A program made the translations under genes and the position numbers. This document shows, piece after piece, positions 1,978 to 27,621 of a stretch of DNA of 37,814 nt. The stretch's first letter is position 1, and the number at the start of each line of letters is the position of its first letter. The notes beneath the pieces are model-generated. The model ran no database searches and was not told the origin of the DNA. It saw only the letters and a list, made by a program, of their open reading frames with translations. The DNA lies in assembly GCA_017466805.1 (NCBI GenBank), contig JAFTTN010000092.1, forward strand, positions 1 to 37,814. The letters run 5' to 3'. This DNA is from Clostridia bacterium. GTDB taxonomy: Bacteria; Bacillota; Clostridia; Oscillospirales; CAG-382.

Positions 1978-2056
1978 ATGTTTTATTACAAGAACCAGGT
2001 ATAAGTCACGAATATTATGGGATTATTATTGTGTTTTTGTATTTAAAGTTATGCAG

Positions 2057-2098
2057 AAAAAACGCGAGAGAACCACTTGTTCAAAAGCGGTTCTCTCG
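2057..2098 (-). terminator. Rho-independent terminator of the large minus-strand operon
   Basis: A 10-base-pair stem (CGAGAGAACC with GGTTCTCTCG, 2065-2074 and 2089-2098) is followed on the minus strand by a run of six T. It begins about 25 bases after the stop codon of the dockerin gene and is the only convincing terminator seen downstream of 25141 on this strand. Confidence 0.8.
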
Positions 2099-2123
2099 TA
2101 TTCTTGCTTTTATTATTTTGTAA

Positions 2124-3179
2124 TTAACCAATCACGAACGTGCCGAAGTAGTGGCGCGCGATAAGAACGTAATCGTACTGGTCTACGGTTCCGTCATCGT
2201 TTACGTCTGCACGGATTTCTTCTTCGGAAGTAAGAATACGTGTTTCGAAGTAGTGACGTTTTACAAGGATATAATCGTATTGGTTAATATCGCCGTCGTT
2301 ATTAACGTCGCCCAAGCCGTTGCTTTCGCCAAGATAATAGCAAGCATACATCCAAGCGTCATCGAGCTCGCCGCCTACCCAGCCGTCTGCGCCATACCAG
2401 CTATTGCTCTTGCCCATTTCCTGATAAATTTTTATAATATCTGCGGTAAGAGGGTAGAAGCCTTCATCGGAGCAGTTGAAATATTCTTCGAACGCGGCGT
2501 TAAAATCGATTTTCGCTACAGCTTCGCCGTCCTCGTAAATTACGGCAACGAGCTGTCCGTAGCCATATGCATCTGCAAGCGACATCATAGAATCGGCAAG
2601 ATTTGCGTAAAGGATAGGACCTTCGGCGGAATCGAGATGATAATATCCGTCTTCGCCGAGCACTGCGGTATTTTCGATTTCATCGAAGGTATCGACGTAC
2701 TGCAAAGCGTTTTTATTGCCATCGAAGGTGAATGCTTCGGGGGTTACGGTGTTAACGTACGGGGTGCGGGGAATCGTTACGATAACAAGCTCCTCCCACT
2801 TTATATTTACCGAAACGCTTGCACTGTTGCTATCGATTGCAAACCAAATCGATTGGCCTACACCGGTGCATTCCCAGCTAAAGCTGTTTTCGGCAACCGT
2901 TTCTGCAGAGGGCTCGGTTGTAATCCACATACCGTTATTACTTACCAAAGCAATAGCCGCATCGGTTACGGTAAAGGTATATTTACCTATTTCTTCGGGA
3001 ACGAAATCATATACGGTATATTCGTATTCGCTGTTGATTTCAAGTGAATTATCGCCTACCGCAACGTTTGCGGATTCGATTAAAATATAGTTTTCGCCCT
3101 CTGCGGACACGCCGACGGAAAGCAAGAGCATTAACGCCGCAAGCACGAGCGGAAACGCTTTTTTGAGAATTTTCTTCAT
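2124..3179 (-). CDS. Secreted protein: beta-sandwich region, shared unknown domain, C-terminal dockerin
   Basis: A 351-residue exported protein. Residues 1-26 are a signal peptide ending GVSAEG, with no lipobox. Residues about 30-135 look like an all-beta domain (GKYTFTVTD core), also seen in the neighbour at 5508. Residues about 178-285 hold an unrecognised domain containing YYHLDSAEGPILYANL and ending WMYACYYLGE; copies occur in the proteins at 5508 and 6779. Residues 289-346 form a type I dockerin with two EF-hand-like calcium loops: D291, N293, D295, D297, D302 and D325, N327, D329, D336. Both loops carry QYDY where cellulosomal dockerins have their cohesin-recognition residues. Start chosen from AAAGGAG upstream of the ATG. 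Last gene of the operon, 14 bases behind its neighbour. Docking to a cohesin-bearing surface protein is inferred from the family; no cohesin is visible in the window. Confidence 0.85.
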   Translation of the reverse strand: MKKILKKAFPLVLAALMLLLSVGVSAEGENYILIESANVAVGDNSLEINSEYEYTVYDFVPEEIGKYTFTVTDAAIALVSNNGMWITTEPSAETVAENSFSWECTGVGQSIWFAIDSNSASVSVNIKWEELVIVTIPRTPYVNTVTPEAFTFDGNKNALQYVDTFDEIENTAVLGEDGYYHLDSAEGPILYANLADSMMSLADAYGYGQLVAVIYEDGEAVAKIDFNAAFEEYFNCSDEGFYPLTADIIKIYQEMGKSNSWYGADGWVGGELDDAWMYACYYLGESNGLGDVNNDGDINQYDYILVKRHYFETRILTSEEEIRADVNDDGTVDQYDYVLIARHYFGTFVIG

Positions 3180-3193
3180 TATATTATACTCCT

Positions 3194-4171
3194 TTATGCG
3201 TAAACTGCATTCCAGGTTATATCGACCGCAGGAATATTATTGCGCTTATCGCGCTGTGCACCTACAACGATTATTAGCTCGTCGCCTGCCTTTACCTCGA
3301 TTTCGACGTATTCGGCTTCGGTTTCCTCGCTCGTGCGGTTAGCAGATGTGGAATTGTTCGTTACCGAAAGCAAACTTGCAACCGACGCAGTCATATAGAA
3401 GCGAAGAGTGCCGTCCTTTTCGGCGATATACTTAAAGTGGTAGCCGGTTTCGTTACCTGCGGGGATAGATACCGAGTTATCGTCGGAAATATTCTCGACA
3501 GACTTGGGGTTTGCCATAGTTCCTTCGGGATTTTCGAACTGAAGAAGGAAGGCTTCATCGCTTTCGCCCTCGTTACAGATTTCGAAAAGTATCGCATCGC
3601 TTGCAAGCGCATATGCGATTTTTACCACTACCTTGCCCTTCTTTGCGATATATGGAATGCCTTCGTATTCAACCGATACGTTTTCGTTTTCGATTGTAAG
3701 AATCGTACCGCCGACGCGATAGATAGCGTAGTACTGCGATTCGCCCGCAGGGATATTATAAGTAGTTACGGTTTTATCCTCGGCAGGAATCATAAGAAAG
3801 GGATCGTTTTTCGTACCGGTGCCGAGAATTTCGGGTTCGATAGTCGTATCCGCTTCGGAGGATTCCTCTTCGGGAACCGAAGATTCATCGTTCGCCTCGG
3901 AGCTTTCGGTATTGGATTCGATTTCCGATTCGGTTAACGAGCTATCCTCGCTCGAGGTATCGGCAGAGGAGGCGTTTTCGTATACTGCGGCAGAGCTTTC
4001 GCTATTTGAAACGGCTTCGCTTACCGAAGCAGAGCTATTGGTTTCTGCAGCAGAAGAGCTTTGTTCGGTTTCGCCGCAGCCCGCAAGCGCAAGCGCAAAA
4101 AGCGAAACGAGCAAAACGAACGCAACCGAAGTTTTGAACAGATGCGAGGTCTTTTTATTAATACCTGCCAT
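3194..4171 (-). CDS. Lipoprotein with Ser/Glu-rich linker and C-terminal beta domains
   Basis: A 325-residue predicted lipoprotein of unrecognised family. The signal peptide ends LALAGC, with the lipidated Cys at 32. Residues about 35-115 are a low-complexity Ser/Glu/Ala linker of the kind that spans the cell wall in Bacillota lipoproteins. Residues about 118-325 look all-beta, in two similar halves (TTYNIPAGESQYYAIYRV and VSIPAGNETGYHFKYIA), suggesting a duplicated pre-peptidase-C-like or jelly-roll sandwich. I start at the ATG at 4171 rather than the upstream in-frame TTG at 4189, because AAAGGGTG sits 6 bases before this ATG. The start touches the stop of the preceding gene, so translation is probably coupled. 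A role in binding extracellular ligands is only an inference from location. Confidence 0.75.
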   Translation of the reverse strand: MAGINKKTSHLFKTSVAFVLLVSLFALALAGCGETEQSSSAAETNSSASVSEAVSNSESSAAVYENASSADTSSEDSSLTESEIESNTESSEANDESSVPEEESSEADTTIEPEILGTGTKNDPFLMIPAEDKTVTTYNIPAGESQYYAIYRVGGTILTIENENVSVEYEGIPYIAKKGKVVVKIAYALASDAILFEICNEGESDEAFLLQFENPEGTMANPKSVENISDDNSVSIPAGNETGYHFKYIAEKDGTLRFYMTASVASLLSVTNNSTSANRTSEETEAEYVEIEVKAGDELIIVVGAQRDKRNNIPAVDITWNAVYA

Positions 4172-4172
4172 A

Positions 4173-4595
4173 TTATTCACCCTTTGCAAGCGTTACTGTG
4201 TATTCGGTAATTCCGCTTTCGAGATAAATTTCGGCATCGCCGCTGTAGCTGTAGCCTTCGGGACAGGAGAGCACCGAAAGCTTATACCCATCGGTAATTT
4301 CCACAGGGAAGGTTGCAACACCGTCTTCGCCGGTTTTTGCGGGGATGCAGGTATCCTTGCAAAGCTGAATCATAACGCCCGAAACGGCGTTGCCATCGGC
4401 ATCTGTCACGAGCACCTTGAAGCTTGCGGTTACGGTAGATTCTTCTTTGCTTTCGGCTTCGCTTTGGATATTGCTTATATCTTGGCTGGTTTCGGTCTTG
4501 CTGCTTTCTGCAGCCGAGGTATCGCTTCCCTCTCCGCAGGCGCAAAGGCAGAACAAGGCGGTAACCAAAAGCATTACTGCAATTATTCTTTTCAT
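4173..4595 (-). CDS. Small lipoprotein with a prealbumin/SpaA-like beta domain
   Basis: A 140-residue lipoprotein. The signal peptide ends LCAC, with lipidated Cys 20. A Ser/Glu linker (about 23-52) leads to one beta-rich domain (about 53-138) beginning FKVLVTDADGNAVSGVMIQL. That pattern is typical of prealbumin-like, SpaA-like or carboxypeptidase-regulatory-like domains. A related domain opens the neighbours at 4616, 5508 and 6779, where it is fused to other modules; this gene carries it alone. AAGGATG lies upstream of the ATG. It sits between a thioredoxin-domain lipoprotein and another lipoprotein with 20- and 1-base spacings, so it is co-transcribed. The ligand is unknown. Confidence 0.7.
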   Translation of the reverse strand: MKRIIAVMLLVTALFCLCACGEGSDTSAAESSKTETSQDISNIQSEAESKEESTVTASFKVLVTDADGNAVSGVMIQLCKDTCIPAKTGEDGVATFPVEITDGYKLSVLSCPEGYSYSGDAEIYLESGITEYTVTLAKGE

Positions 4596-4615
4596 ATTAT
4601 TACATCCTTTTTATA

Positions 4616-5518
4616 TTATTGTATTTCGCTTATATTTTTAATCGGCTTTTGAATATAATCATCGGCGGTAAAATAAGCGAAAAGCTTTTCGAAAACCTCT
4701 TTTTCGGTTATAGCACCGGTGTGCATAAACACGACCATTCCGTAGCGGTCTATTATAACGGTTGTCGGATATCCCGCAAGCCCTTTTATCGCCGTTTGCC
4801 ATTCGGCATCCACAGACGCCATCGGGAAGGTTAGCGACATCGATTCGGCATATTTCTCAACGCCTTGCTGATTACTGTCGAGCGGATTAAGGGCAAGAAT
4901 TTCGAGCTTATCTTTAAAGCCGTTATAGGCTTCCTGCATATACGGAAATTCCATTTTGCAGGGACCGCAGTTTTCGAACCAGAAATTTAACACCAACGCC
5001 TTTTTGGTTTTTAATATCTCGCTCGCTTTATGCGTTGCTCCGCTTGAATCGGTTATTTCGAAATCGAACGCAACATCGCCAAGACCAAGCATTGCGTCTT
5101 TTACAGGTCCTTCGATCAGCTCGGTTTTAACGGCAAATTCATTATCCTTCGATTTGATCGAATAATACGACTCGGGTACGTATCCGCCCAAGCTCGAAAA
5201 GCCTTTGAGCTCGGCAATATAATTATCCGATTGCTTTGCCGAGAATCTGTAAAAGCCTTCGCTGTCGGTTATGCCGTTTGCAACAAGATTTTTCGCTTCG
5301 GTATTATCGTACACCGAAACGTATATATGCTCGAGCGGCATTCCTCCGGCAGTTACTACCCTTATTATATACTGTTGCTTTGGTCCTTCGGTTTCGGTCG
5401 TTTCCTTACCGCTAAAAAGGCTTCGCAAGAAGCTGTTGCAGGAGGAAAGCGAGAGCAGCGCACACAGTGCGAGAAATACGAGTGCAATTCTTTTTAGCTT
5501 CATAGTTTTATTCAACAT
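4616..5518 (-). CDS. TlpA-like thioredoxin-domain lipoprotein (CGPC)
   Basis: A 300-residue membrane-anchored extracellular thiol-disulfide oxidoreductase candidate. The signal peptide ends LSSC, with lipidated Cys 27. Residues about 46-135 form a prealbumin-like domain (VVTAGGMPLEHIYVSVYD). Residues about 142-285 form a TlpA/ResA/AhpC-TSA-type thioredoxin fold with the active site CGPC (C184, C187) after VLNFWFEN, and the cis-proline loop GYPTTVIIDRYG (P251). In this family the CXXC pair reduces or exchanges disulfides outside the membrane; the partner cannot be read from sequence. The start is ambiguous: ATG at 5518 or the second ATG at 5503, neither with a clear ribosome site. The start overlaps the end of the upstream gene by 11 bases, suggesting coupling. 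Likely electron source: the thioredoxin-tailed polyferredoxin at 26088 (inference). Confidence 0.88.
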   Translation of the reverse strand: MLNKTMKLKRIALVFLALCALLSLSSCNSFLRSLFSGKETTETEGPKQQYIIRVVTAGGMPLEHIYVSVYDNTEAKNLVANGITDSEGFYRFSAKQSDNYIAELKGFSSLGGYVPESYYSIKSKDNEFAVKTELIEGPVKDAMLGLGDVAFDFEITDSSGATHKASEILKTKKALVLNFWFENCGPCKMEFPYMQEAYNGFKDKLEILALNPLDSNQQGVEKYAESMSLTFPMASVDAEWQTAIKGLAGYPTTVIIDRYGMVVFMHTGAITEKEVFEKLFAYFTADDYIQKPIKNISEIQ

Positions 5519-6751
5519 AGCAGCACATTAAAAGCCAAGCAAGCTCGGGGTTTATCGAAAGGTCGTTATTGCCGTTTGCATCCTTGAACAAATAGCCGTT
5601 GCTTGCGGAATCCCACCAGCCGACGTATTCGCCGCGATTGGTTACGATATGCTTTAAATCCTCGGTAAGAGGATATACGCCCTCGATTGCATCGACGTAT
5701 TCGATATATTCAAGCAGACATTCGGAATAGCTTACTTTTTCGGAAAATTCACCGTTTTCATCGTAGAAATAGCGGCTTACGCCCGAACGGTCGAGTATGG
5801 TTTTGAAGCAGGCGATATAATCGCAATCCTCGGCAAGACGCATTAAAACGAGCGGACCTTCGGCAGAGCCGAGGTGATAAAAGCCGTCTTGCTCGTTAAG
5901 CACGAGGGTATAGGCATCCGTTGCGGCGGTTAAATCGAATTCCTTTATAACCGCGTCTTCGGGAAGATTATATTCCGAAAGCTCAACCGTCTTTTTATAA
6001 ATAGTCCAAGGCTCGTCCTCGATAGTGCGGTCGGGCTCGCCAAGACGGTTAATGCAAAGCACGCAATCGTTTTTATCGGTTGCATCGATACCTATAACGT
6101 AGGTAGAGGTGCCGGTATCGCCGGTACCGATCATTGAAGCGCTGACCGAAACAGTAAAGCTTTTGCCGTTCATTTCCGCAATATTTTCGCTTTGTACAAA
6201 ATGCGGCGCGCCGTAATATCCGATCGTTGCATTCACGTTATCGTAAACGGTAAATTCGTATTTACCCGGTTCTGTGGGGCTGAAAAGGAAATAGCTTCTT
6301 GCGTTTTCGGTTAGTTTTACATAAGTACAGCCTGCGGTTACGGCATATGCATCGAATTGGTTTGCGCTTACAAATAGTTTAACAGCATTTTCACCGACCG
6401 TTTTCGAGAGCAATACAGTGACTTCGTTATTTGCGGCGGTGAGCTTAATGTTTTTATCGTAATGATAAGTAACCGTCGAGTTGGTAAATCCGAGCTCGAT
6501 AGTATATTCCCCGCTTGCCAAGGTTTTGCTTGCAACGCCGTTTTCATCGCAAAGCTGCATTGCTACCTGCTGACCGTTTTGCATAAACTTTACGACAGTG
6601 CCGCTTTCACAGGGGGCACCCAACGCATCGGCAACGGTGACCTTATAGGTTATTTCGGAGGGTGCGGTGACCTTATCACCGCATCCGCCGAGCACTGCGG
6701 AGGCGCACAAAAGTGCCGCCGCAAGAAGTGTGTATAATATTCTTTTTGCAT
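5508..6751 (-). pseudogene. Lipoprotein gene with an apparent 1-base frameshift at codons 2-4
   Basis: The long frame encodes a lipoprotein of about 413 residues: signal peptide ending LGGCGD, a prealbumin-like domain, an all-beta domain related to the one in the dockerin protein (GKYEFTVYD), and a copy of the shared unknown domain (FYHLGSAEGPLVLMRL to WLLMCCYVE) that ends the protein. No sound start exists in this frame. The strong ribosome site GAAGGAAGG (6760-6768) points 8 bases on to an ATG at 6751, but that ATG is one base out of frame, in ATGCAAAAAGAATA. One more A in the five-A run (6743-6747) would give MQKRILYTLLAAALLCASA, a textbook lipoprotein start. The only in-frame upstream start is a TTG at 6821 inside the previous gene with no ribosome site. 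So this is a sequencing/assembly error, a recent inactivating mutation, or slippage. The rest of the frame is intact, which favours error, slippage or a recent event. Confidence 0.65.
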
Positions 6752-6759
6752 TATCGTTA

Positions 6760-6768
6760 CCTTCCTTC
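6760..6768 (-). promoter_or_regulatory. Ribosome binding site that locates the 5508-6751 start
   Basis: GAAGGAAGG on the minus strand, 8 bases before the ATG at 6751. It is the evidence that translation should begin at 6751 and hence that the downstream frame is broken by one base. Confidence 0.7.
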
Positions 6769-6778
6769 GCCGCAACAA

Positions 6779-9553
6779 TTACGCGCCGAGGTAGTCGTAA
6801 TAGTAGCAAAGCTTGATCCAAGCGTTTTCGACTCCCTCGAAGGTATATTTATCCATTAGCTTTTGGAGCATAGATGCCAATTCCTCATCAACTTCGACAC
6901 AGCCGTTGCGCTCATCGGACGATTTGATTATTTTGGGAAGATATGCACGCATTGCTTCGGTATAGTCCTCGCCGTTGCCGTGATATCTACCTGCAAATAT
7001 ATCGTCAAGCTGATAGATTTTCGCATTCTCATCGTAATCGTCGCCCCAAAGCTTTTTTAGATATTCTCTGGTCTTTTCTACGTCGTTATCGTTCTGCTTA
7101 AGATAGGCAAGGATCTCGCCGTCGGTTTCGCTCTTGCTGAAATCGAAGCCACCCATTTCGATCATTTCGGTTATCGAGCGGTCGAAAACGGTCGTAAGAC
7201 CTGTAAAATCGGCATAGATAAGACTGTTTTGCTCTGATTCGTAATACTTGCCATCCTTGAGCACGGGCTTGATACCGCCCGAGATGATATCGTACATAAC
7301 ATCTCCGGTTGCATCGCTGTCGTAGGTAAAATAGCCCGGTGCACAAAGCCTGAACAGCTTATAGGAGGAACCTAAAAATTCAACATCATATTCAATCGCA
7401 CCGGTTTCATAAACGTCCCAGAACGCCATATTGATATAGTAGGGAGTTCCTGCTTCCATGTAATATACCATAGAGCAATTTTTATCATCTGTGTACATTC
7501 TTTCGTCGTGCTCGTAGGTATAAATAACTTCGCGGTTTGCGTTAAATATCCAGGCGTCTATACCATCTTTATAATCGCTCTTGCTGGTAAAGCGGTACAC
7601 GCCGGATTTTGTGGGAACGAATTCCGAAAGAAGACCGCGGGGGATTATTGCTCTGTCGTAATAGAAGCAGTTTTCGGATTTATTCTTACCCAAAACGGTA
7701 GTGAACGCCGAGAAGGGCGCAAGACCTTTTATGGGGTCGACAAGCTGTGTGCCGTTGGGACCGAACGTCTCGAAATACATACATATTTTCAGCCATTCGT
7801 TTTCGTCCTCGTTGTTGAAGCCTGCAACCTCTGCAACCTGCTTTAGCATTTCGGCAAGCTCGGCATTAACGGTGCAAACACCGTTGAGCGACGAATTGGA
7901 GGCATAGGAGAAGTAATCCACCATACCCTTGCCGCCGTTTTCTTTATCGTAAAGGCTTATTCCGTCTTTATCGGCATCGCCGTTATATACGATTTCGTAT
8001 ACGGTTTGCTCCTCGTTAAAGAGGCTATAGTTCATAAGGTTTGCCAAAAGCAACGGGCCCTTTTCGCTGCCGACGTGATAATAACCGTCTTTTTCGTTGA
8101 ATACGATTTCGACGTAGCTGTAATCGAAGCCGTCTTCGCTTGTTGCAGCTTCACGCGGGAGATAGGTATCGACGTCGATATCGTCCTTATCTACAACACG
8201 GAAGTTGGAAAGATAAACCGTATCGTCGCCTTCGGCGGTATCGCTGTCCTTTAGGAAGCAGAACGCTATTTCATAAACGCCGTCCTCCTCTGCAACACAG
8301 GGATAGCAGGTTTTCCATTCCTCGTTTGCATCGGCACCCGAAATCTGAAAGATATCGTCGCCATCGACTATAACGTAGAGAATATCCGAATATCTTTCGG
8401 AGGAAACGAGGTAATCGATACCGAGTGCTTCGCCTGCTTTAAGCGTTACGTCGGCATAAATTATCGCATACGACGAATCGATGCCGATATTGGAAGCCTT
8501 GATACAATCCTTATCGAGCTTTTTATCGATAATAAAGGGCCAGATAAATTCTGCGTTATCGTCCTCGGTTTCGGGGCGGTAGGTTACCTCGATTTCGCCG
8601 TTATTCACGGCGGAAGCAATTTCTTCGCTTGTGGGCATTTCGTAGGTAGGTGCAACCTGAGTTACGAGGTCGCCGATGCCGTTGACACAAAGCGTTTGCT
8701 TATAGTTGTCTGCAGTAAAATGGTCGAAGGCAGACATAAAGGGGCGTTTGCTGGTTATTGCGCCCGATTCGATAAGGCAAACGGTACCGTAGCGGTCGAT
8801 AAACACCGACGTGGGATAGCCCTGAACACCGAAGGTTGCCGACCAGGACGACGGGCAGGACGCCATTGGAAATTCCAAGCCGTACTGTGCCTGGAACGCC
8901 TTTACAGCGTTTGCATCGTCGATCGGGTCGAGCGCGATTATTTCAACGTCGTCTTTATAATCGCGGTAAACCTCGTTCATTATCGGGAACTCCTCCAAGC
9001 ACCAGGAGCAAGTGGTATACCAGAAGTTAAGCACCACGAGCTTTTTGGTTTTAAGAACTTCCGAAAGGGTTATTTCGCTTCCGTCGGACTTCATAACCGT
9101 AAAATCGTACATTACGCTGCCAAGCCCGATAGTTGCGCTCGAAAGCTCACTATCGGTGATAAGCTCGGATTCGAGCACGATTGCGGCGTTTTCGCCAACG
9201 AAGCTATAGCTTGCGTTGACCTTATAGCCCTTGGGCGCGCCCGAAATTACGATTGCATAGTTATCGTTTTTGGCAAGGCTGAAGGTAGCCTGTCCTTCGG
9301 AATTGGTTTTTGCAAAATCCTTCATATCGGCAAGGCTCGAATCTGCATAGATATAAACGTCGAGCTCTGCCATAACCATACCGCCCGCAGTTTTTACGCT
9401 AACGGTATAGGTTGTGTTTTCTCCGTAAGACTGATCCGCCGAGCTTTCGCTGTCGCCGCTGCCGTTTCCGTTGCAGGAAGCAAGACAGGCAACGAGCATA
9501 ACCGCGGCAAGAAGGCAGGAAAGCAGCCTTAACGGCGTTTTTCTGTTTTTCAT
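6779..9553 (-). CDS. Large multidomain lipoprotein: TlpA-like thioredoxin (CSWC) plus two copies of the shared unknown domain
   Basis: A 924-residue lipoprotein, lipidated Cys 27 (ACLASC). Residues about 47-130 are a prealbumin-like domain. Residues about 140-290 are a TlpA-like thioredoxin fold with CSWC (C182, C185) after VLNFWYTT and cis-proline P247 in GYPTSVFIDRYG. CSWC is unusual for TlpA proteins, which mostly have CXPC; the residue before the second Cys affects redox potential in thioredoxin folds. Residues about 330-460 look like a carbohydrate-binding-type beta sandwich. Residues about 488-593 (YYHVGSEKGPLLLANL to WLKICMYFE) and about 766-920 (YYESEQNSLIYADF to WIKLCYYYDYLG) are two copies of the shared domain, separated by a beta region (about 610-730). 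AAGGAG precedes the ATG. It is the likely surface hub of the lipoprotein set, but its substrate is unknown. Confidence 0.88.
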   Translation of the reverse strand: MKNRKTPLRLLSCLLAAVMLVACLASCNGNGSGDSESSADQSYGENTTYTVSVKTAGGMVMAELDVYIYADSSLADMKDFAKTNSEGQATFSLAKNDNYAIVISGAPKGYKVNASYSFVGENAAIVLESELITDSELSSATIGLGSVMYDFTVMKSDGSEITLSEVLKTKKLVVLNFWYTTCSWCLEEFPIMNEVYRDYKDDVEIIALDPIDDANAVKAFQAQYGLEFPMASCPSSWSATFGVQGYPTSVFIDRYGTVCLIESGAITSKRPFMSAFDHFTADNYKQTLCVNGIGDLVTQVAPTYEMPTSEEIASAVNNGEIEVTYRPETEDDNAEFIWPFIIDKKLDKDCIKASNIGIDSSYAIIYADVTLKAGEALGIDYLVSSERYSDILYVIVDGDDIFQISGADANEEWKTCYPCVAEEDGVYEIAFCFLKDSDTAEGDDTVYLSNFRVVDKDDIDVDTYLPREAATSEDGFDYSYVEIVFNEKDGYYHVGSEKGPLLLANLMNYSLFNEEQTVYEIVYNGDADKDGISLYDKENGGKGMVDYFSYASNSSLNGVCTVNAELAEMLKQVAEVAGFNNEDENEWLKICMYFETFGPNGTQLVDPIKGLAPFSAFTTVLGKNKSENCFYYDRAIIPRGLLSEFVPTKSGVYRFTSKSDYKDGIDAWIFNANREVIYTYEHDERMYTDDKNCSMVYYMEAGTPYYINMAFWDVYETGAIEYDVEFLGSSYKLFRLCAPGYFTYDSDATGDVMYDIISGGIKPVLKDGKYYESEQNSLIYADFTGLTTVFDRSITEMIEMGGFDFSKSETDGEILAYLKQNDNDVEKTREYLKKLWGDDYDENAKIYQLDDIFAGRYHGNGEDYTEAMRAYLPKIIKSSDERNGCVEVDEELASMLQKLMDKYTFEGVENAWIKLCYYYDYLGA

Positions 9554-9586
9554 AACAGTTTCTCCTTATAAATATAGATTTAAGGA

Positions 9587-9826
9587 TCACATTATCCAAA
9601 ATAGCAGACTGACGATAAGAAACGCGGCAACGATGAATCCTACTGCAACGAGCGTAGGCTTAATCATCATTTTAGTGGCGCCCCAATAGGTTTGCCAAAT
9701 ATCCCCAAAGCTCGAGCTTGTGCCCTGCTTATACCAGCGGCTTCCACCCGAAACGTTCGACATATCGGCTATCGTGCGGCCGTCGTCGATATAGGTTATC
9801 TTTTGCTTTTTTTCTTTCTTTTTCAT
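9587..9826 (-). CDS. Small single-pass membrane protein (DDGRTIADM motif)
   Basis: A 79-residue protein. The N-terminus is very basic (MKKKEKKQK), followed by YIDDGRTIADMSNV, a Gly/Ser/Trp-rich stretch, and one C-terminal hydrophobic helix (about 57-78). As best I recall, small proteins with a DDGRTIADM motif recur next to transporter genes in Clostridia, without a known function. The predicted topology has a cytoplasmic basic end and one membrane span. It lies 23 bases after oppF and 33 bases before the large thioredoxin lipoprotein gene, so it is part of the operon and might be an accessory subunit of the transporter (inference). Confidence 0.8.
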   Translation of the reverse strand: MKKKEKKQKITYIDDGRTIADMSNVSGGSRWYKQGTSSSFGDIWQTYWGATKMMIKPTLVAVGFIVAAFLIVSLLFWIM

Positions 9827-9849
9827 CGGTCTTCTACCTTTATATTATA

Positions 9850-11993: not shown

Positions 11994-11996
11994 AAA

Positions 11997-13037: not shown

Positions 13038-13050
13038 TTTCAATGCCTCC

Positions 13051-14043: not shown

Positions 14044-14057
14044 TTGCTACTCCGTTT

Positions 14058-16625: not shown

Positions 16626-16652
16626 TGTTTTCACCTTTATATAATTATTTTT

Positions 16653-17975: not shown

Positions 17976-17980
17976 TTAGC

Positions 17981-20900: not shown

Positions 20901-23900
20901 ATAAACCAGGCTTTAGAGGTTTCGGCATCGTCGAACGCCAATTCCTCGGCGGTTTTCATTATGTATTCGAAGTTCGAGAACGCGAACTGACCTATTTCAC
21001 GCAGGTTGAGTCTTTCGGGAATAACGACCAAGCCGCCGTTGCCGTAATAGTGAGTAAGGCTTGCACCCGTGGTAATATAGGGGTCCTTGACCTCGACCGA
21101 AACGGTTTCGGAATAATAGGTGCTTTGATTATCGAGCAGCACCTTTACGGTTACCGAGGCAAATCCCTCGGCAACGCCGGTGACCAAGCCGCTTGAATCG
21201 ATTTTTACGATATTTTCGTTACTCGATTCGAACGCCACGGTGGTATCCTTGGGGAAATAGGAATCGAGCGAATAGTTCAAGCGAACGCTTTCGGAGGGAT
21301 AAAGCGCGAGGTTGAAGTTGCCCTCGAAGAAATTGATATTTCCGGTATCGCCTATATCCTTTTCGGCGTTATCGATAACGTAGTAAGCCTTAACGGTTTC
21401 GTATCCGTCGAGAGTGAAAACGTCGACAACGGGACGGTCGAATCTTTGATATCCTTCGTCGTCCTCATCGAGAACCGTAACGGTAAAGGTTACGCTTTCG
21501 TTGGTGTTGGGATCCTGTGCCTTGATAATTGCGCTGCCCGAGGAAACGGCAACGATTTTATTGTTGACGATTCTTGCAACGCTGGGCTTCGAGGATGCGT
21601 ATTCGAGAAGCTCGGACCATTCGGTATAAGGCAGTACCGTGGGAGAGAGCGTATATACCTCGTTGGGCGAGAGAGTCAAGCCGTCCTCGAGGCTTTCGAA
21701 ATAAAATTCGGTGAAATCGTCGGGAAGGCCGATTTCGTACGTAGCATAGTTAAGCGCGTAGTCGTAAACCGTAAGAACGAAGCTGTTTTTATTGGTAGAG
21801 TTGTTCTTGATATCGTAGAGATAATCGGTTAATTCATAGGTTACGCGTGTGGTGCTGTTGCGTTCGGAATAAACCGGAGTCATATAATGCTCGAACGCCT
21901 TTAATTCGGGAGCGGGGTTATCGTTTTCGTCGGTGCCTTGGGTAACGTAGCCTATCTGCGAGGACATTGTATAGTGGTTATCGTAGATAAGCACGTCGGC
22001 GTAAAGACGGTTTTTGTTAAGAGTTTTATCGTATTTGTAGTAATACTCGATTCCCGTTACGGTGGGTGCTTCGAAGTCGATAGTCAACGGGAATTCGAAC
22101 ACGTTGTTTTCGTTGGTTGCAAGCCCGCCGTCGCCGTAATCGAGATAGCCGACGAGTTTAACGATATATTCGCTGTTATTTGCAAGGTTGTATTCGGTGG
22201 TATCGAATTCAATCTTGACGTTTGCGGGATAGATCGACGCGCCGCCGTCGCTATAGGATTTGCGCACGTCGTTTTCGGTACGGGTGAATATTACCTCGCC
22301 CGTGGTTGCATTGGTGATAGAAATATCTATCTTCGCGGCGTTACGTAGCATACCTGCCCAAACGAAACGGAGCGAATGAACTGTACCCTCCTGATTGGAA
22401 AGTGCGATATAGTTTTCGTTTGCCGAAATAACCATATCCTTCGAATCCTGAAGGAAGTAATAGGAGCCGAGGTAGCTGACGTAATCATCGCTTACGCCGC
22501 CGATGGGACGGGTTGCGTATGCGTCTGCTTTGGTTTTGTCCTCTTCGTCGATACCGGTATCGAGCTCGTCGGCGTTGGTATCGTAATAGGTGAGGTCGAA
22601 GAGCGGTGCCACGGTCCAATCGCCGTAATATGCGAGATAGGGAACGCTCAAATCGATATCGGTGCCGCTGTCTGCTTTAAGAGTTATAAAGCCTTCGACG
22701 TACATACCGTTTTTGAAGGATTCATCGAGATACCTTTTATCCGATTCGCCGAGCGTTACGGTTACGGTAACCTCCAGGCTTTCGCCGGCATAAACGGTTA
22801 CCTCCTTACCCTTGATATGACCGCCCTTATCGTCCTTGCTTGTTAGAGTAACGGTTGAGCCGTCGAGGATATAGGCTTCCTCGGTTACCGTGGTTTTACC
22901 TGCCGAGGTTTTGGTGTCGCTTACGCCTTCGGTCATAACGTATGCACCCAGATCGTAGGAAACGGTTGCATCGCCAAAGTTATTCACGGTGAAGGTCATT
23001 TCGTAAACACCGTTTTTATCGGGGTCGTCGCCGAGCTCGAGCTTGGCTTTATCCATAACCTTGCCGTTTTTATCACGCGTGGTGATATATGCGGGGGTAT
23101 TTATCGAATTAAGGAGATTTGCAAGACCCGCGCCCTGCTTTCTTACCGAATAAGGCAAGCCATTGGTGTTGAGCGCGATATCCGCGGTGGACATCATAAG
23201 CGAGAACACCATTGCGTTTACTTTTACGTTATCGTTTGCGATTTCGGGGAAGTTTTCAACAACGTACTGTCTTAAAAGAACTACCACGCCCGAAAGGTTG
23301 GGGCACGCCATCGAGGTGCCCGAAAGTCGATCGTAGCCGCCGCCGGTTATTGCCGAAAGAATGCTGCCGCCGTGTGCGGTGATTTCGGGCTTAAGGCGAA
23401 GGTCGGGGGTAGGACCCCAAGAGGAGAAATCCGAAATAAAGGGACCCGAGGTTTGATTACGGCCGATTTTGAGAACGCCGTTCCCCTTTGCGAGCATTTC
23501 GCCGTCATCCTGCGAGATCGAGCAGACGGCAAGAGTTGCTTCGCCTACGTTCATTTTGATATCGCCCGAAACGTTATTGTAAATAATAATGCCTGCGGCA
23601 CCCTGCTGCTGTGCGATCATCGCCTTTTCCTCGAAGGTGTTCGAGCCGCGGCGCACGAGTGCGATTTTACCCTTTACGTCCATACCCGTATAGTCTGCAC
23701 TTCTGCCGACGCCGGGGATTAAAACGTATTCCATATCGACGCTGTCCTTATCGCCGAGAAGCGTATCGAAGAATTTATTTTCCTCGCCGGAGGCATCGGA
23801 GGATTCGGTGAAATACACGATAGTATCGCCGTAAAGGATATAGGGTGTTTCGACACCGCTTATCGAAGCGACCGACATAACGCCTTCATAGGTAGAGGGT

Positions 23901-25141
23901 GAGCCGACGGTGCCTGTATCGGGGTTGGTGGTAAGACCAAGGTTACCGTTTGCCTCGGAGCCGTATGCCGAGGAATAGCTGTTGGAGGCCGCAACGACCA
24001 TACTGATGCCTGCCGCACGGATTCTGTCGTAGATACCGTTGAGCTTTTCCTCATCGGTCTCGCGCGAGAAGCCGCAGGCGGTACCGATAGACATATTGAT
24101 AACGTCGACACCGAGAACGACGCAATCCTCGAGTGCGGCGAGGATCCAAGCCGATCTTGCGGTATCCATAACGTCGGAGAAAATCTTCATCGAAACGAGC
24201 TGTGCGTTGGGAGCTACGCCGCGAATCGTATCGTCGTTACCAACGATAACGCCCGAAACGTGAGTACCGTGCTCGTTGTGGGTGGAATAAACGTCGGAAT
24301 CGTTATCGGCGTAGTCGAAGCCGAAGGGGACTTTATCGTTTATATAAACGTCGTCCACGGTTAAGCCGCCGGTAAGCTTGCTCGCGGCGGTATTGCCGAC
24401 CACGGACGCAACCTCTTCGTAGGTAAGACCGAGCTTATTCGAGCTGAAGTTTTTGGGAGAAAACGCGGTGTGGTTGGAATCAAGGCCGGTATCGAGAACC
24501 GCCACAACAACACCCGAGCCGTCGAAGCCGGAATCCGAGCTGTCGAATATACCGGTATCGAAAACGTTTACCTCGTTTTCGACAAGCTTGGTTTCGCAGC
24601 GCTCGTATTCCTCGCCGAGAATTACGCCCATTCCCTTGCCGAGCGATTTGCAGGTGTTTTCGAACTCGCCGCCTTTAATAACGAGCTCGAAGCCGCAAAG
24701 AATTGCGGAATACTCCTCTCCCTCGGAATAGGCAATATTCTTTTCGTCAAGCGATTTCAAAAGAGCCTGTTTTTTCTGTGCAACGGTATTTTTTATATCC
24801 GATGCAGTATTGCTCTTTAAAGCGTAATCGGTAAAGCTCATTGCTTTATCGGATTTTTCGTACGCGTCGAGAATACTTATATTATCGACGGTTACGATAA
24901 CCGAAATTTCCTGCTCGTCGCCGATAGATTCTGGGAGCTTGAACATTACCGAGCTGTCGAGATATTGAGAATATCCGAACTGCTGATCGAGTCTTTCGAT
25001 ATACGACCCGTTGTTTTCGTCTGCCAAAGCATTGGAGCCGATACGCATTGCGGGAACGATAAGCGCGCCTGCAAGAAGTGCAGCCGCCATCGACACCGAA
25101 AGCGCAGATCTCAATGCTTTGAAAAGCCTTGTTTTTTTCAT
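17981..25141 (-). CDS. Giant cell-surface subtilase (peptidase S8) with PA, Ig-like and BspA leucine-rich repeats
   Basis: A 2386-residue serine protease. Order of parts: signal peptide (1 to about 40, ending ALADEN); propeptide-like region (about 45-190); S8 catalytic domain with D217 in AVLDTGLDS, H294 in EHGTHVSG, oxyanion N387 in AASNSY and S610 in SGTSMACP; PA insert (about 480-540, KGKIALVRRG) between H and S; fn3-like region (about 700-850); two bacterial Ig-like (Big_2) domains (about 1154-1224 and 1274-1337); roughly 30 BspA-type repeats of about 23 residues (about 1364-2165, IGDYAFAY-like); a helical linker (VEAARAAYDKIATMEQ); one membrane helix (about 2354-2370); and a basic tail, without LPXTG. 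The layout resembles lactocepin-type cell-envelope proteinases, which feed Opp transporters in lactic acid bacteria. All catalytic residues are present. GGAG lies 13 bases before the ATG, rather far. First gene of the operon. Confidence 0.95.
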   Translation of the reverse strand: MKKTRLFKALRSALSVSMAAALLAGALIVPAMRIGSNALADENNGSYIERLDQQFGYSQYLDSSVMFKLPESIGDEQEISVIVTVDNISILDAYEKSDKAMSFTDYALKSNTASDIKNTVAQKKQALLKSLDEKNIAYSEGEEYSAILCGFELVIKGGEFENTCKSLGKGMGVILGEEYERCETKLVENEVNVFDTGIFDSSDSGFDGSGVVVAVLDTGLDSNHTAFSPKNFSSNKLGLTYEEVASVVGNTAASKLTGGLTVDDVYINDKVPFGFDYADNDSDVYSTHNEHGTHVSGVIVGNDDTIRGVAPNAQLVSMKIFSDVMDTARSAWILAALEDCVVLGVDVINMSIGTACGFSRETDEEKLNGIYDRIRAAGISMVVAASNSYSSAYGSEANGNLGLTTNPDTGTVGSPSTYEGVMSVASISGVETPYILYGDTIVYFTESSDASGEENKFFDTLLGDKDSVDMEYVLIPGVGRSADYTGMDVKGKIALVRRGSNTFEEKAMIAQQQGAAGIIIYNNVSGDIKMNVGEATLAVCSISQDDGEMLAKGNGVLKIGRNQTSGPFISDFSSWGPTPDLRLKPEITAHGGSILSAITGGGYDRLSGTSMACPNLSGVVVLLRQYVVENFPEIANDNVKVNAMVFSLMMSTADIALNTNGLPYSVRKQGAGLANLLNSINTPAYITTRDKNGKVMDKAKLELGDDPDKNGVYEMTFTVNNFGDATVSYDLGAYVMTEGVSDTKTSAGKTTVTEEAYILDGSTVTLTSKDDKGGHIKGKEVTVYAGESLEVTVTVTLGESDKRYLDESFKNGMYVEGFITLKADSGTDIDLSVPYLAYYGDWTVAPLFDLTYYDTNADELDTGIDEEDKTKADAYATRPIGGVSDDYVSYLGSYYFLQDSKDMVISANENYIALSNQEGTVHSLRFVWAGMLRNAAKIDISITNATTGEVIFTRTENDVRKSYSDGGASIYPANVKIEFDTTEYNLANNSEYIVKLVGYLDYGDGGLATNENNVFEFPLTIDFEAPTVTGIEYYYKYDKTLNKNRLYADVLIYDNHYTMSSQIGYVTQGTDENDNPAPELKAFEHYMTPVYSERNSTTRVTYELTDYLYDIKNNSTNKNSFVLTVYDYALNYATYEIGLPDDFTEFYFESLEDGLTLSPNEVYTLSPTVLPYTEWSELLEYASSKPSVARIVNNKIVAVSSGSAIIKAQDPNTNESVTFTVTVLDEDDEGYQRFDRPVVDVFTLDGYETVKAYYVIDNAEKDIGDTGNINFFEGNFNLALYPSESVRLNYSLDSYFPKDTTVAFESSNENIVKIDSSGLVTGVAEGFASVTVKVLLDNQSTYYSETVSVEVKDPYITTGASLTHYYGNGGLVVIPERLNLREIGQFAFSNFEYIMKTAEELAFDDAETSKAWFIGDNTVTKVVIPEGVEKINSYAFANLTALEEIVLPSTLRSIEYGAFYNCVSLKKITFSGENNLQIISQNAFENCNLSGSLDLKSICVISDYAFAGNQSLENITLPESLLSVGQYAFAGCKKLNNPTINSEKVKYGAYAFTDCESITEFYVNSAVLPEGMFYECESLEKVTIGADVKDIGAFAFRDTKINEFSVSAGNTVYKVQNASTILSSDGKTLVAVAPTLNGEYSDANITAIGKGAFSHNQSITAVVMNNVTKIGDYGLASNESLASVSLGKLESIGDYGFFETAITVMPEITAETKVGKYAFSHTKLAEVNIPDNAVIAEGTYSECLNLATVVIGNNVTVGKFAFSMNKDNAFKVMQYTENEQKLFRYEFSSPLTSLTIGENVNIGESAFMNAASLESVTLGNGAVLGKQAFYNASSLKNIDLSKVVSVGDYAISGDVYYACLDENMSVAAVNSDGYYIYTYHAPLLESIDLSSAESIGEYSFSYCRSLAEVKLGEAIKEIPQYAFAGCASIKNINLENIESIGDYAFMECGLEAVDVSGATDIGKYAFVSNRLLASVKLNSEASRVGEGAFAYCDPLANIENLASVENIGDYAFAYTAVTEAVLSGAVSIGKNAFMKEEATPFKVTLGEKLQTLGDNPFAMCAVEPFFRNTTEEINGFELDAVTYTYDITDKVKVIEGSLYYKNINGYELITYAGTDNADATVAEDTVRISALAFAGSKVERIKMPYTVTAIGHKAFYSCDDLEIVVFGSYTVPIFEEEFDPTYYESLEHIPGTGDYGTYTDYDGNEVVINGLGLVPYFMWNATGSMYSNVFYGANFVDYVGYVDEKLIMVYPVNGIGYDSYICNQYFDYRIEGPAAPDKITVAAIKAIKLIPERVTLDDKATVEAARAAYDKIATMEQMALVTNYSNLVSAEQRIAALTPTEDGQDNAKESGGNGGMIAVIVLCVAAFVGFIVYRNRKEKNSEGGQD

Positions 25142-25174
25142 AGGTTCGCGGGTTCTCCTTTTATTTGTGATAAT

Positions 25175-25228
25175 TATTTACTTATATAAATATATAAAAC
25201 CAATTTATTTTACTCTATTTCGAGTCAA
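25175..25228 (-). promoter_or_regulatory. Probable promoter region of the protease/Opp operon
   Basis: The AT-rich gap holds two minus-strand candidates: TTGGTT (25198-25203) with TAAATA (25175-25180), spacing 17; and TTGACT (25223-25228) with TAAATT (25202-25207), spacing 15. Neither is ideal, so the exact start is open. The region lies back to back with the well-formed plus-strand promoter at 25282. Confidence 0.35.
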
Positions 25229-25281
25229 ATTGCAATATATTTACGTTATTATTTAAAATATTTTAATTTTTTTAATACTCA

Positions 25282-25310
25282 TTTACATTCGAACGATATT
25301 GTGTTATAAT
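25282..25310 (+). promoter_or_regulatory. Sigma-A-type promoter of the redox module
   Basis: TTTACA (25282-25287), 17-base spacer, TATAAT (25305-25310), with TG one base before the -10 (extended -10). Transcription should begin near 25317, which rules out an upstream ATG at 25299 as the start of the first gene. Confidence 0.8.
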
Positions 25311-25340
25311 TTATACATACTTTTTCAGCGAGGAAAAGCT

Positions 25341-26081
25341 ATGAACGACAAAAACCAGCTTATAATACGCCGAGTAACAGCGGCTCTTACGGCGATTTCG
25401 GTAATAATAGCCGGAATTTGCTTGATTTCCGCCTGCCTTTCGATATACTTCGGCGAAGGTGAATACACGCGTGAAGCGGTAAGCGAAGCGTTTTCGCCGA
25501 TTTCGGTCGCGGTACTTTTGTGTCCCGCGCTCGCTTTATTGGGACTGTTGGAGGAAATAATTCTGCCCAAGCATACGCAATCCGACAGCAAGCCAAACAT
25601 GCTTTACACTCTTCAAAAGCGGCTTGCCGCAACAAAACAGCCGAGCGCCGAAATTTTGGCAGAGCGCAAAAAGCGCCGTATCGCAAAAGCCGCGCTTGCG
25701 GCAATTCTTGCAATTTGCGCCTTGATTTTCTTTATTTACGCGCTTAATTCGGATAATTACACCTCCGATATAAACGCCTCGGTAATCGGCGCGCTATATC
25801 TGCTTATTCCCTGCCTTGCGGTTAGCTTTTGCGCCGCTTGTACGGTTTTGGTATTCGACGAAAAGAGCGTAAAGCACGAAGCCGAGCTTTTAAAGCAAGC
25901 CGAAAGCAAGGAAGGCACAGACGTCAAGAAAGCAAAAAAGACGAGCGTCGTGCCCGCTTTGCGCTTTTCGGTGCTTCTTATTGCGCTCGTTTTACTTATA
26001 TACGGCTATATACTCGGCGGTACGGCAGACGTACTGACAAAAGCGGTGAATATCTGCACCGAGTGCATTGGATTGGGGTGA
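25341..26081 (+). CDS. Membrane protein with C-terminal CD1871A-like CXXC tail
   Basis: A 246-residue integral membrane protein with four or five hydrophobic segments (about 13-33, 50-70, 113-133, 142-165, 208-228) and charged cytoplasmic loops. The end, VLTKAVNICTECIGLG, has C239 and C242 and matches what I recall of the small CD1871A-family CXXC proteins of Clostridia. Such proteins are short and free-standing; here the motif appears fused to a larger membrane protein. The start is the ATG at 25341, behind GAGG and inside the transcript predicted from the promoter at 25282. The next gene, a polyferredoxin with a thioredoxin domain, begins 6 bases after the stop, so the CXXC may pass electrons to or from it (inference from context). 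Confidence 0.75.
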   Translation: MNDKNQLIIRRVTAALTAISVIIAGICLISACLSIYFGEGEYTREAVSEAFSPISVAVLLCPALALLGLLEEIILPKHTQSDSKPNMLYTLQKRLAATKQPSAEILAERKKRRIAKAALAAILAICALIFFIYALNSDNYTSDINASVIGALYLLIPCLAVSFCAACTVLVFDEKSVKHEAELLKQAESKEGTDVKKAKKTSVVPALRFSVLLIALVLLIYGYILGGTADVLTKAVNICTECIGLG

Positions 26082-26087
26082 TGGGCG

Positions 26088-27578
26088 ATGAAGAAATTTT
26101 GGTTGAAATTAAAAACGTTTATCCCCACCAAGCGAAAGCTTGCGCAATTATATTTCGCTCTGCTTTTCAACGCAAATATTAAAGGCTTTATATCCGGAAA
26201 CATATATCAGGGCACGACGAAGCAGATGTGCGTTCCCGGAATAAACTGCTATTCCTGCCCGGGTGCAATAGGCGCCTGCCCGCTCGGCTCGCTTCAGGGA
26301 TCGTTTTCGGCAGACAAAAGCACTCTGTTTTACGTCGGCGGCATACTTTTGCTGTACAGCGTAATTTTCGGCAGAATGATATGCGGTTGGTTGTGTCCGT
26401 TCGGCTTTATTCAAGAGCTTTTATACAAGATAAAAACACCGAAGCTGAAAAAGAGCCGAATAACCTGGCTTTTATCGTTTTTGAAGTACGTTATACTTAT
26501 ATTTTTCGTATTCATCGTACCGATAATATATGCGCTGCGCGATACACCCCTGCCCGCATTTTGCAAATACATTTGCCCTGCAGGCACGCTTGAGGGCGGT
26601 ATAGGCCTGCTGGCAAACAAGGTAAACGAAAGCTATTTTTCGATGCTCGGTCCGCTTTTCACCTGGAAATTCGCGCTGATGGTCAGCATTATCGTTGCCT
26701 GCATATTTATTTTCAGAATGTTTTGCCGCTTTATATGCCCGTTGGGTGCATTGTACGGCTTATTTAACAAAATATCCTTCTTCGGCGTTAAGGTCGAGGA
26801 CGAAAAATGCGTTGACTGCAACAAATGCACGGCGCATTGCAATATGGACGTAAAAAAGGTGGGTGACGCCGAATGCATTGCCTGCGGCGAATGTATCGAC
26901 GTGTGCCCGACGAAAGCGATTGTTTGGAAGGGCTCGCAGATATTTATACGCAAAAGCGAGCTTCCCGAAGTGCAGACGGCACCCGAAAAGAGCAAGAAAA
27001 AAACGGTTGTGCGCGCGGTTTCCTGTTTTGCGGCGGTCGCCGTACTTATTGCCGCATTTGCTTTTTATTGGAGCGACGGCAAGGAAAAGCAGGAGCAAAG
27101 CTCTTACCCGACCGACGAAAGCGGAAATATCGAATACGGCAACGAAAAGGGCGATTACTGCTACGGTGCAGAGCTTGAAATTATTACCGCCGAGGGAATT
27201 GCAGAAGGCAGGCTCGACCCAAGCAAGACCGGCAGGATTACGGTTATAAACTTTTGGGGTACCTGGTGCACGCCCTGTGTTAACGAGCTTCCCTATTTCG
27301 ACCGCATTGCAAGCGAATATTCCGACACGGTAAGCGTGGTTGCAATACACACGAATATGGTTTCGGAAACAGCACCCGAATATATCGGAAATTACTATAA
27401 AAACAGCAAAATAACCTTCCTGCGCGACAGCGAAAACGAAGGTTATTACGCAACGCTCGGCGGCAGAGGAACCTATCCCTACACGGTGGTTATAAATGCC
27501 GAAGGCAAAATAACCGAAATATTCTTCGAAGCGTTGGAATACGAGGATTTGAAAGCCGCGGTAGACGCCGCAAAATAA
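26088..27578 (+). CDS. NapH-like 4Fe-4S membrane protein fused to an extracellular TlpA-like thioredoxin domain
   Basis: A 496-residue membrane redox protein. N-terminal part (1 to about 225): membrane helices with NapH/CcoG-type motifs CGWLCPFG (C99, C103), CKYICPAG and CRFICPLG (C213, C217), plus a Cys cluster CVPGINCYSCPGAIGACPLG (C48, C54, C57, C64). Then a 2[4Fe-4S] ferredoxin domain: C241/C244/C247/C251 and C263/C266/C269/C273. One more helix (about 312-328) leads to a thioredoxin domain (about 355-496) with CTPC (C394, C397) in NFWGTWCTPC and a proline loop at GTYPYTVVI. The arrangement suggests electrons pass from a cytoplasmic ferredoxin across the membrane to an outside thioredoxin. 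This is a known architecture in Clostridia, but its partners are poorly known. The two TlpA lipoproteins of the divergent operon are obvious candidates. Confidence 0.9.
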   Translation: MKKFWLKLKTFIPTKRKLAQLYFALLFNANIKGFISGNIYQGTTKQMCVPGINCYSCPGAIGACPLGSLQGSFSADKSTLFYVGGILLLYSVIFGRMICGWLCPFGFIQELLYKIKTPKLKKSRITWLLSFLKYVILIFFVFIVPIIYALRDTPLPAFCKYICPAGTLEGGIGLLANKVNESYFSMLGPLFTWKFALMVSIIVACIFIFRMFCRFICPLGALYGLFNKISFFGVKVEDEKCVDCNKCTAHCNMDVKKVGDAECIACGECIDVCPTKAIVWKGSQIFIRKSELPEVQTAPEKSKKKTVVRAVSCFAAVAVLIAAFAFYWSDGKEKQEQSSYPTDESGNIEYGNEKGDYCYGAELEIITAEGIAEGRLDPSKTGRITVINFWGTWCTPCVNELPYFDRIASEYSDTVSVVAIHTNMVSETAPEYIGNYYKNSKITFLRDSENEGYYATLGGRGTYPYTVVINAEGKITEIFFEALEYEDLKAAVDAAK

Positions 27579-27589
27579 CAGCAAAAAAC

Positions 27590-27620
27590 AAGCTCCGATG
27601 CTAAAATCGGAGCTTTTTTT
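27590..27620 (+). terminator. Rho-independent terminator of the redox module
   Basis: Arms AGCTCCGAT and ATCGGAGCT with a six-base loop, followed by T7, starting 12 bases after the polyferredoxin stop codon. Confidence 0.9.
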
Positions 27621-27621
27621 C

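Follow-up and report, generated by a model that had tools for sequence, protein, structure and literature searches.

Cell-envelope proteinases of the lactocepin and C5a-peptidase type are paired with oligopeptide (Opp) transporters, and in lysosomes a reductase is paired with cathepsins. For Streptococcus pneumoniae, the available text of one report presents the CcdA-Etrx1/Etrx2-MsrAB2 system, with CcdA as the conduit and a methionine sulfoxide reductase as the client (PMC3914529), and the accessible part of a survey of outward NapH-like modules describes membrane iron-sulfur (Fe-S) proteins that serve outer redox partners in a modular way, and that carry or accompany flavin mononucleotide (FMN)-binding domains (PMC8238504). 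For keratin breakdown by Fervidobacterium islandicum AW-1, the idea is that disulfide breakage and proteases work jointly on tough proteins; its reductase candidates were inferred from the genome, and the accessible part of that report describes no dedicated surface cluster (PMC4587914). Here, we analysed a stretch of 37,814 nucleotides from a Clostridia bacterium (contig JAFTTN010000092.1; the whole stretch is called the window below), which encodes a giant surface subtilase, an Opp transporter and thioredoxin lipoproteins and, divergent to them, a membrane polyferredoxin fused to a thioredoxin. An earlier note, made from the letters of the window, had proposed that this locus reduces disulfides of extracellular proteins, cuts the proteins and imports the peptides. 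The genes co-occur almost perfectly, keep together despite rearranged order, and have repeatedly been gained or lost jointly, which strongly supports a functional link of the protease with Opp and with outer thiol chemistry.

The source genome (G000) is a draft of 1.89 Mb in 92 contigs, 73% complete. A run on the minus strand, from 25141 down to 2124, encodes in this order SUB, INL, OppA, OppB, OppC, OppD, OppF, a 79-residue protein, T6, P5, T4, P3, P2 and P1, with P11 and FDX on the plus strand, divergent from SUB. All open reading frames (ORFs) claimed earlier were present at or near their places, and ORFs and Pfam confirmed the tight one-strand run with a subtilase, an InlB-like lipoprotein, oppABCDF, TlpA-like lipoproteins and a dockerin protein. 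The gaps, given earlier as 0-33 bases, indeed reach at most 33 bases once the gene for the 79-residue protein, the small membrane protein of that description, is counted, but several ORFs as annotated overlap.

17981..25141, minus: SUB, surface subtilase of 2386 residues with S8 domain and PA insert, fn3_5, Big_2, BspA-type leucine-rich repeats (LRRs) and a C-terminal membrane anchor (Pfam)
16653..17975, minus: INL, InlB-like lipoprotein (label from the earlier note), first gene after SUB (sequence)
14058..16634, minus: OppA, peptide-binding lipoprotein of 858 residues (SBP_bac_5 match and orthologues)
13051..14043, minus: OppB permease (Pfam)
11997..13043, minus: OppC permease (Pfam)
10848..11993, minus: OppD ATPase (Pfam)
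9850..10848, minus: OppF ATPase (Pfam)
9587..9826, minus: 79-residue protein with a single C-terminal membrane segment and the motif YIDDGRTIADMS, between oppF and T6 (frame kept in 10 of 10 genomes examined)
6779..9553, minus: T6, lipoprotein comprising an Ig-like stretch, a ResA-type thioredoxin (CSWC), a MAM-like jelly roll and two copies of the shared domain, with a PPC/collagen-binding-like domain between the copies
5508..6821, minus: P5, lipoprotein comprising an Ig-like stretch, a middle part in common with P1 and one shared domain (profile comparison)
4616..5518, minus: T4, TlpA-like lipoprotein with CGPC (Pfam; CxxC in 18 of 18)
4173..4595, minus: P3, small Ig-like lipoprotein (Pfam matches below cut-offs; lipid-type Cys20 in 59 of 59)
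3194..4189, minus: P2, lipoprotein with an acidic/serine linker (sequence and relatives; no Pfam family)
2124..3179, minus: P1, secreted, with shared domain and C-terminal dockerin (PF00404, 47.4 bits)
25341..26081, plus: P11, five hydrophobic segments and a C-terminal CTEC, CD1871A family (NF040920, 40.5 bits, cut-off 32)
26088..27578, plus: FDX, membrane polyferredoxin of NapH-like type with a fused TlpA-type thioredoxin (CTPC), the latter presumably on the outer side (Fer4_5, 68.8 bits; Redoxin, 40.9 bits)

In contrast to the pneumococcal system, the candidate conduit here is the NapH-like fusion, CcdA was undetected, and the genes alongside encode a protease and Opp. Like the surveyed NapH-like modules, FDX combines a membrane Fe-S protein with a presumably outer redox partner, but this partner is a thioredoxin, and FDX has no FMN-binding Pfam match. 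SUB shares S8, PA and fn3_5 domains with the lactocepin and C5a-peptidase type, as well as peptide transporter genes in the same run. It differs in having an LRR tail, in a membrane anchor that lacks LPXTG, and in the redox block that accompanies it. Each part has known relatives; as one kept and moving unit, their combination is to our knowledge undescribed. A literature search covering titles and abstract openings, with most subscription papers outside it, returned no such coupled unit or protease-Opp-thioredoxin cluster, and no paper on CD1871A.

Joint inheritance of protease, transporter and redox genes

Only long matches of at least 54% identity were counted as orthologues of T6 and FDX; weaker matches, mostly to single thioredoxin or ferredoxin domains, occurred in 34 (T6) and 48 (FDX) of the 63 genomes of the family. 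T6 and the full-length FDX fusion were found in an identical set of 16 of these 63 genomes. SUB orthologues (at least 65% identity) were present in the same 16 and in G029, and OppA orthologues (at least 62% identity) in 15 of the 16, all except the fragmented G010, and again in G029. In a sample of 394 genomes of the order, carriers of T6 and carriers of the full FDX fusion were the same 13, with OppA in 12 of these and in G029. All 16 family carriers have FDX and SUB in head-to-head orientation (P11 was not called in G013), as do G081 and G305, which belong to another family. In g1 genomes whose contigs extend far enough, the redox lipoprotein genes come after oppF; G305 and those g5 genomes that have long contigs carry them on the far side of FDX. 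Block order is rearranged in g5 and f20, with the genes still linked.

The association extends beyond the order sample. A scan of named genomes with two peptide patterns of T6 gave 115 relatives, the best 80 of which were kept and represent 78 loci. Flanks of up to 10 kb, many of them truncated by contig ends, contained FDX at 34 loci, SUB at 34, at least one Opp gene at 26, and any of them at 53. Whole-genome searches located FDX elsewhere in 28 of 32 further genomes and SUB, partly in pieces, in 30 of 34, for genome-level totals of 74 of 78 T6 loci with FDX and 73 of 77 with SUB (L220 left out), which include loci matched to family carriers and two sharing an assembly with a tested locus. 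The earlier note had named lipoprotein genes occurring mostly without the protease as evidence that would tell against it, and this comparison of neighbourhoods left its proposal standing. Seventeen genomes were positive in both searches: FDX and SUB lie head to head, 0.6-1.6 kb apart, in 12 (where T6 was not seen alongside, the contig being cut or T6 lying more than 10 kb away), 13 kb apart in one, and on separate contigs in four.

The cluster was found in both Clostridia and Bacilli (Bacilli: L279, L281 and L283). In the Bacilli loci T6, P11 and FDX are co-directional, followed by INL and oppABC in L279. MoxR-DUF58-BatA genes or parts of them adjoin FDX or T6 at five of the 78 loci, namely these three and L263 and L267 in the Clostridia. 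A gut region was stated for 53 of the 78 loci, and by hand count all 53 are from the cecum, colon or rectum of ruminants. In the accessible part of the source study, 370 samples are given as 148 from the stomach, 111 from the small intestine and 111 from the large intestine (PMC8199421), figures that refer to samples and not to genomes per region. Protein in the hindgut would be the remains of host digestion, which would favour such a system.

An RpoB tree was built from 27 of 30 genomes (G016 had no RpoB match, and the fragments from G005 and G018 were dropped), with 10 cluster-free genomes picked by hand, most of them more than 90% complete. On this tree the presence of the cluster needs eight changes (7-8 over bootstrap trees), at least five of which are forced by well-supported branches; shuffled labels gave a mean of 8.8 changes, and 181 of 500 shuffles were as low as observed. 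The cluster is scattered on the RpoB tree and gained or lost as a whole; in draft genomes single genes may be missing by chance. The OppA of G081, from a different family, is 79% identical to that of the window, with RpoB at 68%, and the SUB of the g5 genomes G037 and G036, from the same family, shows 63-65% identity, with RpoB at 74-75%. These identities suggest horizontal transfer of the cluster, the main caution being misbinning of a 185-kb contig.

Redox modules and surface proteins

The divergent fusion of a polyferredoxin and a thioredoxin described earlier was recovered at 26088-27578. FDX has the ferredoxin-type domain of NapH/MauN (Fer4_5, PF12801) and the Fe-S cysteines; against the curated NapH model TIGR02163 it scores 71 bits (cut-off 213), making it a NapH-like relative and not NapH. 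The C-terminal CD1871A-type CXXC domain of P11, above the NF040920 cut-off, had gone unmentioned. Frames entered the conservation counts if they spanned 60% or more of the window protein and were clear of contig ends. The CxxC motif is kept in 74 of 74 T6, 18 of 18 T4 and 35 of 35 P11 sequences and in 45 of 46 FDX thioredoxin domains (one gap), and all 18 Fe-S-type cysteines of FDX are kept in 46 of 46. A glutamate, which we take to be that of ResA-type reductases, and the cis-proline are invariant in T6, in T4 and in 45 FDX rows, the remaining row being gapped. The motif reads CSWC, CTYC or CTWC in 59 of 74 T6 rows, CGPC in 13 of 18 for T4 and CTPC in 28 of 46 for FDX. Pfam places AhpC-TSA/thioredoxin domains in 4616-5518 (T4) and 6779-9553 (T6), and both proteins have the thioredoxin fold, CxxC, ResA-type glutamate and cis-proline of ResA/TlpA proteins, with scores (T6 82.6 bits, T4 88.2 bits) below the cut-off of 170 of the curated ResA model NF002854.

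The DsbD_TM/CcdA family (PF02683), the one conduit family searched, was above cut-off in none of 19 genomes (18 carriers and G029, 61-98% complete), although G014 gave a single weak match. Of 14 control genomes, 10 were positive. FDX is likely the electron source for the outer thioredoxins, because CcdA/DsbD was undetected and the redox cysteines are conserved. Judging from hydrophobic segments and the positive-inside rule, the ferredoxin part of FDX would lie inside the cell and its thioredoxin outside, as would the CTEC of P11. This topology of FDX requires one weak membrane segment at about 18-36 that is absent from the scan output. NapH likewise has such a weak membrane segment. Unfused polyferredoxins, mostly of about 300 residues, occur in 43 other genomes of the order. 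They have the same parts, and in 15 stretches examined a TlpA-like gene lies next door in 10 and a CD1871A-like end was seen in one (L205); SUB or Opp orthologues adjoin none of the 15, so the linkage appears specific to the FDX fusion.

SUB has the D-H-S triad, PA insert and fn3_5 of S8 cell-envelope proteinases of the C5a peptidase/lactocepin type. Its nearest PDB chain is C5a peptidase 7edd (E 8.5e-68), the triad D217/H291/S610 is invariant in 22 of 22 sequences, and its score against NF040553 is 262 bits (cut-off 1400). By eye, no LPXTG sortase anchor is present in SUB, which ends in a membrane segment and a charged tail. Conserved cysteines are Cys340 and Cys356 in the catalytic domain (24 of 25 each), Cys540 (23 of 25) and others in the LRRs. 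INL has zero Pfam matches and a lipid-type Cys24 in 25 of 26 homologues, and its gene occupies the same place in relatives. The Opp set is complete by Pfam (SBP family 5, two permeases, two oligo_HPY ATPases), OppA scoring 98 bits against NF045467 (Opp4A; cut-off 650), and OppABCDF would import the peptides made by SUB. As another transporter partner we considered genes upstream of T6 at L215 (609, 299 and 292 residues; one subclade), which looked ABC-like by size; they were ruled out by eye, their first residues resembling a translation GTPase, an exonuclease and a radical-SAM-like protein.

The unnamed domain that P1, P5 and T6 had been said to share was borne out by profile comparison (E 4e-28 and 9e-12), and it occurs twice in T6 by eye. 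T6 spans about 890-1140 residues where the frame is complete. Its structure was taken from a second model (predicted local distance difference test, pLDDT, 91; window sequence and 56 of the 73 sequences found), an earlier one (pLDDT 64.5, 12 sequences) being too weak beyond the thioredoxin domain and set aside. The modelled folds are a ResA-like reductase, a VesC/meprin-type MAM-like domain and a ColG-type collagen-binding (PPC) domain. With this model Foldseek ranked ColG first, with low TM-scores over the whole model and unrelated large proteins among the best rows. In the separate fold comparison that gave the MAM-like and collagen-binding assignments, no row matched the shared domain alone. 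MAM-like and PPC domains are accessory parts of secreted proteases, and their predicted presence in T6 favours protein substrates. Further conserved cysteines occur in T6 and P5; in T6, Cys 885 and 916 are both present in 68 rows, both absent in three, and 916 stands alone in three. A lipid-type cysteine is found in most homologues of T6, T4, P5, P3, P2, INL and OppA, and T4 is part of a longer protein of about 1080 residues in two relatives (G034, G037).

The dockerin of P1, of type I (PF00404), had been presented as a special ingredient of the operon. We rejected it as a key part: the source genome has 37 dockerin matches over cut-off, and in one of nine aligned relatives (G006) a C-terminal membrane segment takes its place. 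It looks like an exchangeable anchor, and so many matches in a 1.9-Mb draft make a cellulosome-like or dockerin-anchored surface likely in this organism.

Some variants were seen among the relatives of these proteins. A T6 homologue (L280:9716-12847) has a rubredoxin-like stretch (PF21349, 24.2 bits, just under the cut-off of 26.5). Two assemblies hold two T6 loci each (L231 and L249; L238 and L252), and at L249, L252 and L243 an InlB-like gene adjoins T6 on the opposite strand. Lone P5-like proteins of about 33% identity occur at L186, L187 and L188 (g3), with neighbour frames similar in size between genomes.

Proposed function and its rivals

We consider a transferable protein-utilisation unit that reduces, cuts and imports the best explanation of the locus, and a somewhat probable one. 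It builds on gene content, co-inheritance and residue conservation, all observed, and on the predicted folds of T6. FDX would take electrons from the cytoplasm, probably from reduced ferredoxin, and pass them through its Fe-S centres to the outer thioredoxin, perhaps aided by the outer CXXC of P11. FDX and P11 would then reduce the surface lipoproteins T4 and T6. T6 would hold protein substrates with its MAM-like, PPC-like and shared domains and reduce their disulfides, P5, P2, P3 and P1 acting as further surface binding or scaffold proteins; anchored SUB would cut the opened proteins, and OppABCDF would take up the resulting peptides. Of the earlier proposal, the link of protease, Opp and thiol chemistry stood and the order of steps is plausible, the more so given the protease-type domains of T6, whereas we infer the topology, the electron direction, the disulfide substrates, the step order itself and the import of the products. 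In favour of this reading we also count that, in the accessible part of the Fervidobacterium report, feather keratin is broken down faster with reductant (PMC4587914).

If correct, the conserved unit would link the reducing power of the cytoplasm to the degradation of proteins outside the cell. This would give a genetic handle on the use by gut anaerobes of disulfide-rich proteins such as host enzymes, immunoglobulins, mucins and plant inhibitors. It would also assign a role to the polyferredoxin, TlpA and CD1871A parts of Clostridia, which have no account in the literature searched. A bolder formulation, which we hold tentatively and just short of probable, is that of a mobile ferredoxin-powered locus for a cell-surface machine: a reductase equipped with accessory domains of protease type would open disulfide-bonded proteins so that a partner protease and a peptide transporter can act on them, as an outside-cell counterpart of the lysosomal pairing of a reductase with cathepsins. 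With such a locus, anaerobes of the hindgut could feed on proteins that host digestion leaves behind.

Several observations weigh against the reduction, cleavage and import of outside proteins by a single unit. G029 has SUB, INL and Opp without the T6 block after oppF and with no FDX found, the FDX side lying beyond the contig end. Four T6 genomes lack both FDX and SUB, perhaps through incomplete assembly, and P5-like proteins occur in G026, G027, G028 and G030 (g3 genomes among them), in which SUB was not detected. Because draft or metagenome genomes make up most of the carriers, any single absence carries little weight. The fold matches of T6 include receptors, sugar-binding modules and sugar-acting enzymes, so its domains need not bind protein. 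Internal promoters or terminators had been named in advance as signs of separate transcripts. Promoter-like sites are at chance (21 against 21.0 expected; 16 against 18.4), as are terminator-like sites in 1500-15000 (22 against 18.1), but terminator-like sites in 15000-29000 exceed chance (30 against 19.6 in shuffles). A strong hairpin whose T run is weak also stands barely within INL (17830-17857). It may stop transcription between SUB and the other genes, which makes separate transcripts possible.

The thioredoxins might instead maintain the surface proteins of the cluster itself, keeping or isomerising the cysteines of SUB, OppA, P5, P1 and T6, or activating SUB by reducing a disulfide in its catalytic domain. 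The conserved Cys340, Cys356, Cys540 and LRR cysteines of SUB and the further ones of T6 and P5 fit such upkeep, and, as the accessible text describes, the pneumococcal surface thioredoxins serve the cell's own enzyme MsrAB2 (PMC3914529). However, the LRR cysteines may simply be buried, Cys340 and Cys356 are each lost once in 25 rows and not together, which leaves them a candidate pair at most, and MAM-like and PPC-like domains as large as those of T6 would be odd in a reductase with one partner. We regard upkeep as rather unlikely.

Two further explanations appear still less probable. An aromatic third residue in the CxxC, as in most T6 (59 of 74), is typical of glutaredoxin- and DsbC-type proteins; together with the transporter being Opp, it would suit the scavenging of sulfur or cystine, in which the redox part reduces cystine peptides, mixed disulfides or glutathione disulfide for Opp and the protease is secondary. 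The presence of a protease of about 2400 residues in the genomes of 73 of 77 T6 loci, and the resemblance of the T6 folds to protease accessory domains, make this very unlikely. We think it just as improbable that the module repairs oxidative damage at the surface or disposes of electrons, with protease and Opp linked only as surface genes. The MoxR-DUF58-BatA genes or parts beside FDX at five of 78 loci (BatA: aerotolerance regulator N-terminal) point that way, as does the range of oxidoreductases served by NapH-like modules in the accessible part of the survey (PMC8238504). Against it, the unfused polyferredoxins of the 15 stretches do not adjoin SUB or Opp orthologues, and, as a weak point, no Msr or peroxidase gene is found in the window run, the relatives' other neighbours being mostly unannotated.

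Transcription signals and neighbouring genes

Three non-coding features bound the two transcription directions, and zero Rfam matches reached gathering score in a search for RNA elements.

25142..25340: divergent intergenic region with promoter-like sites, including an 11-of-12 promoter on the plus strand
2065..2098, minus: terminator-like hairpin of 14 pairs that closes the long run
27590..27615: bidirectional terminator-like hairpin downstream of FDX

Among the relatives, only G003 and G014 have flanking genes of the window, for instance the serpin below or P0012, next to the cluster. After the FDX terminator, 27694-29610 (plus strand) encodes a protein that weakly matches a glycoside hydrolase; this gene has an 11-of-12 promoter of its own and stands beside FDX in these two relatives only. 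On the minus strand, a lipoprotein-like serpin (32593-34359, 278 bits), which perhaps gives protection from host proteases, adjoins an M18 aminopeptidase, and both are near the cluster in the same two relatives.

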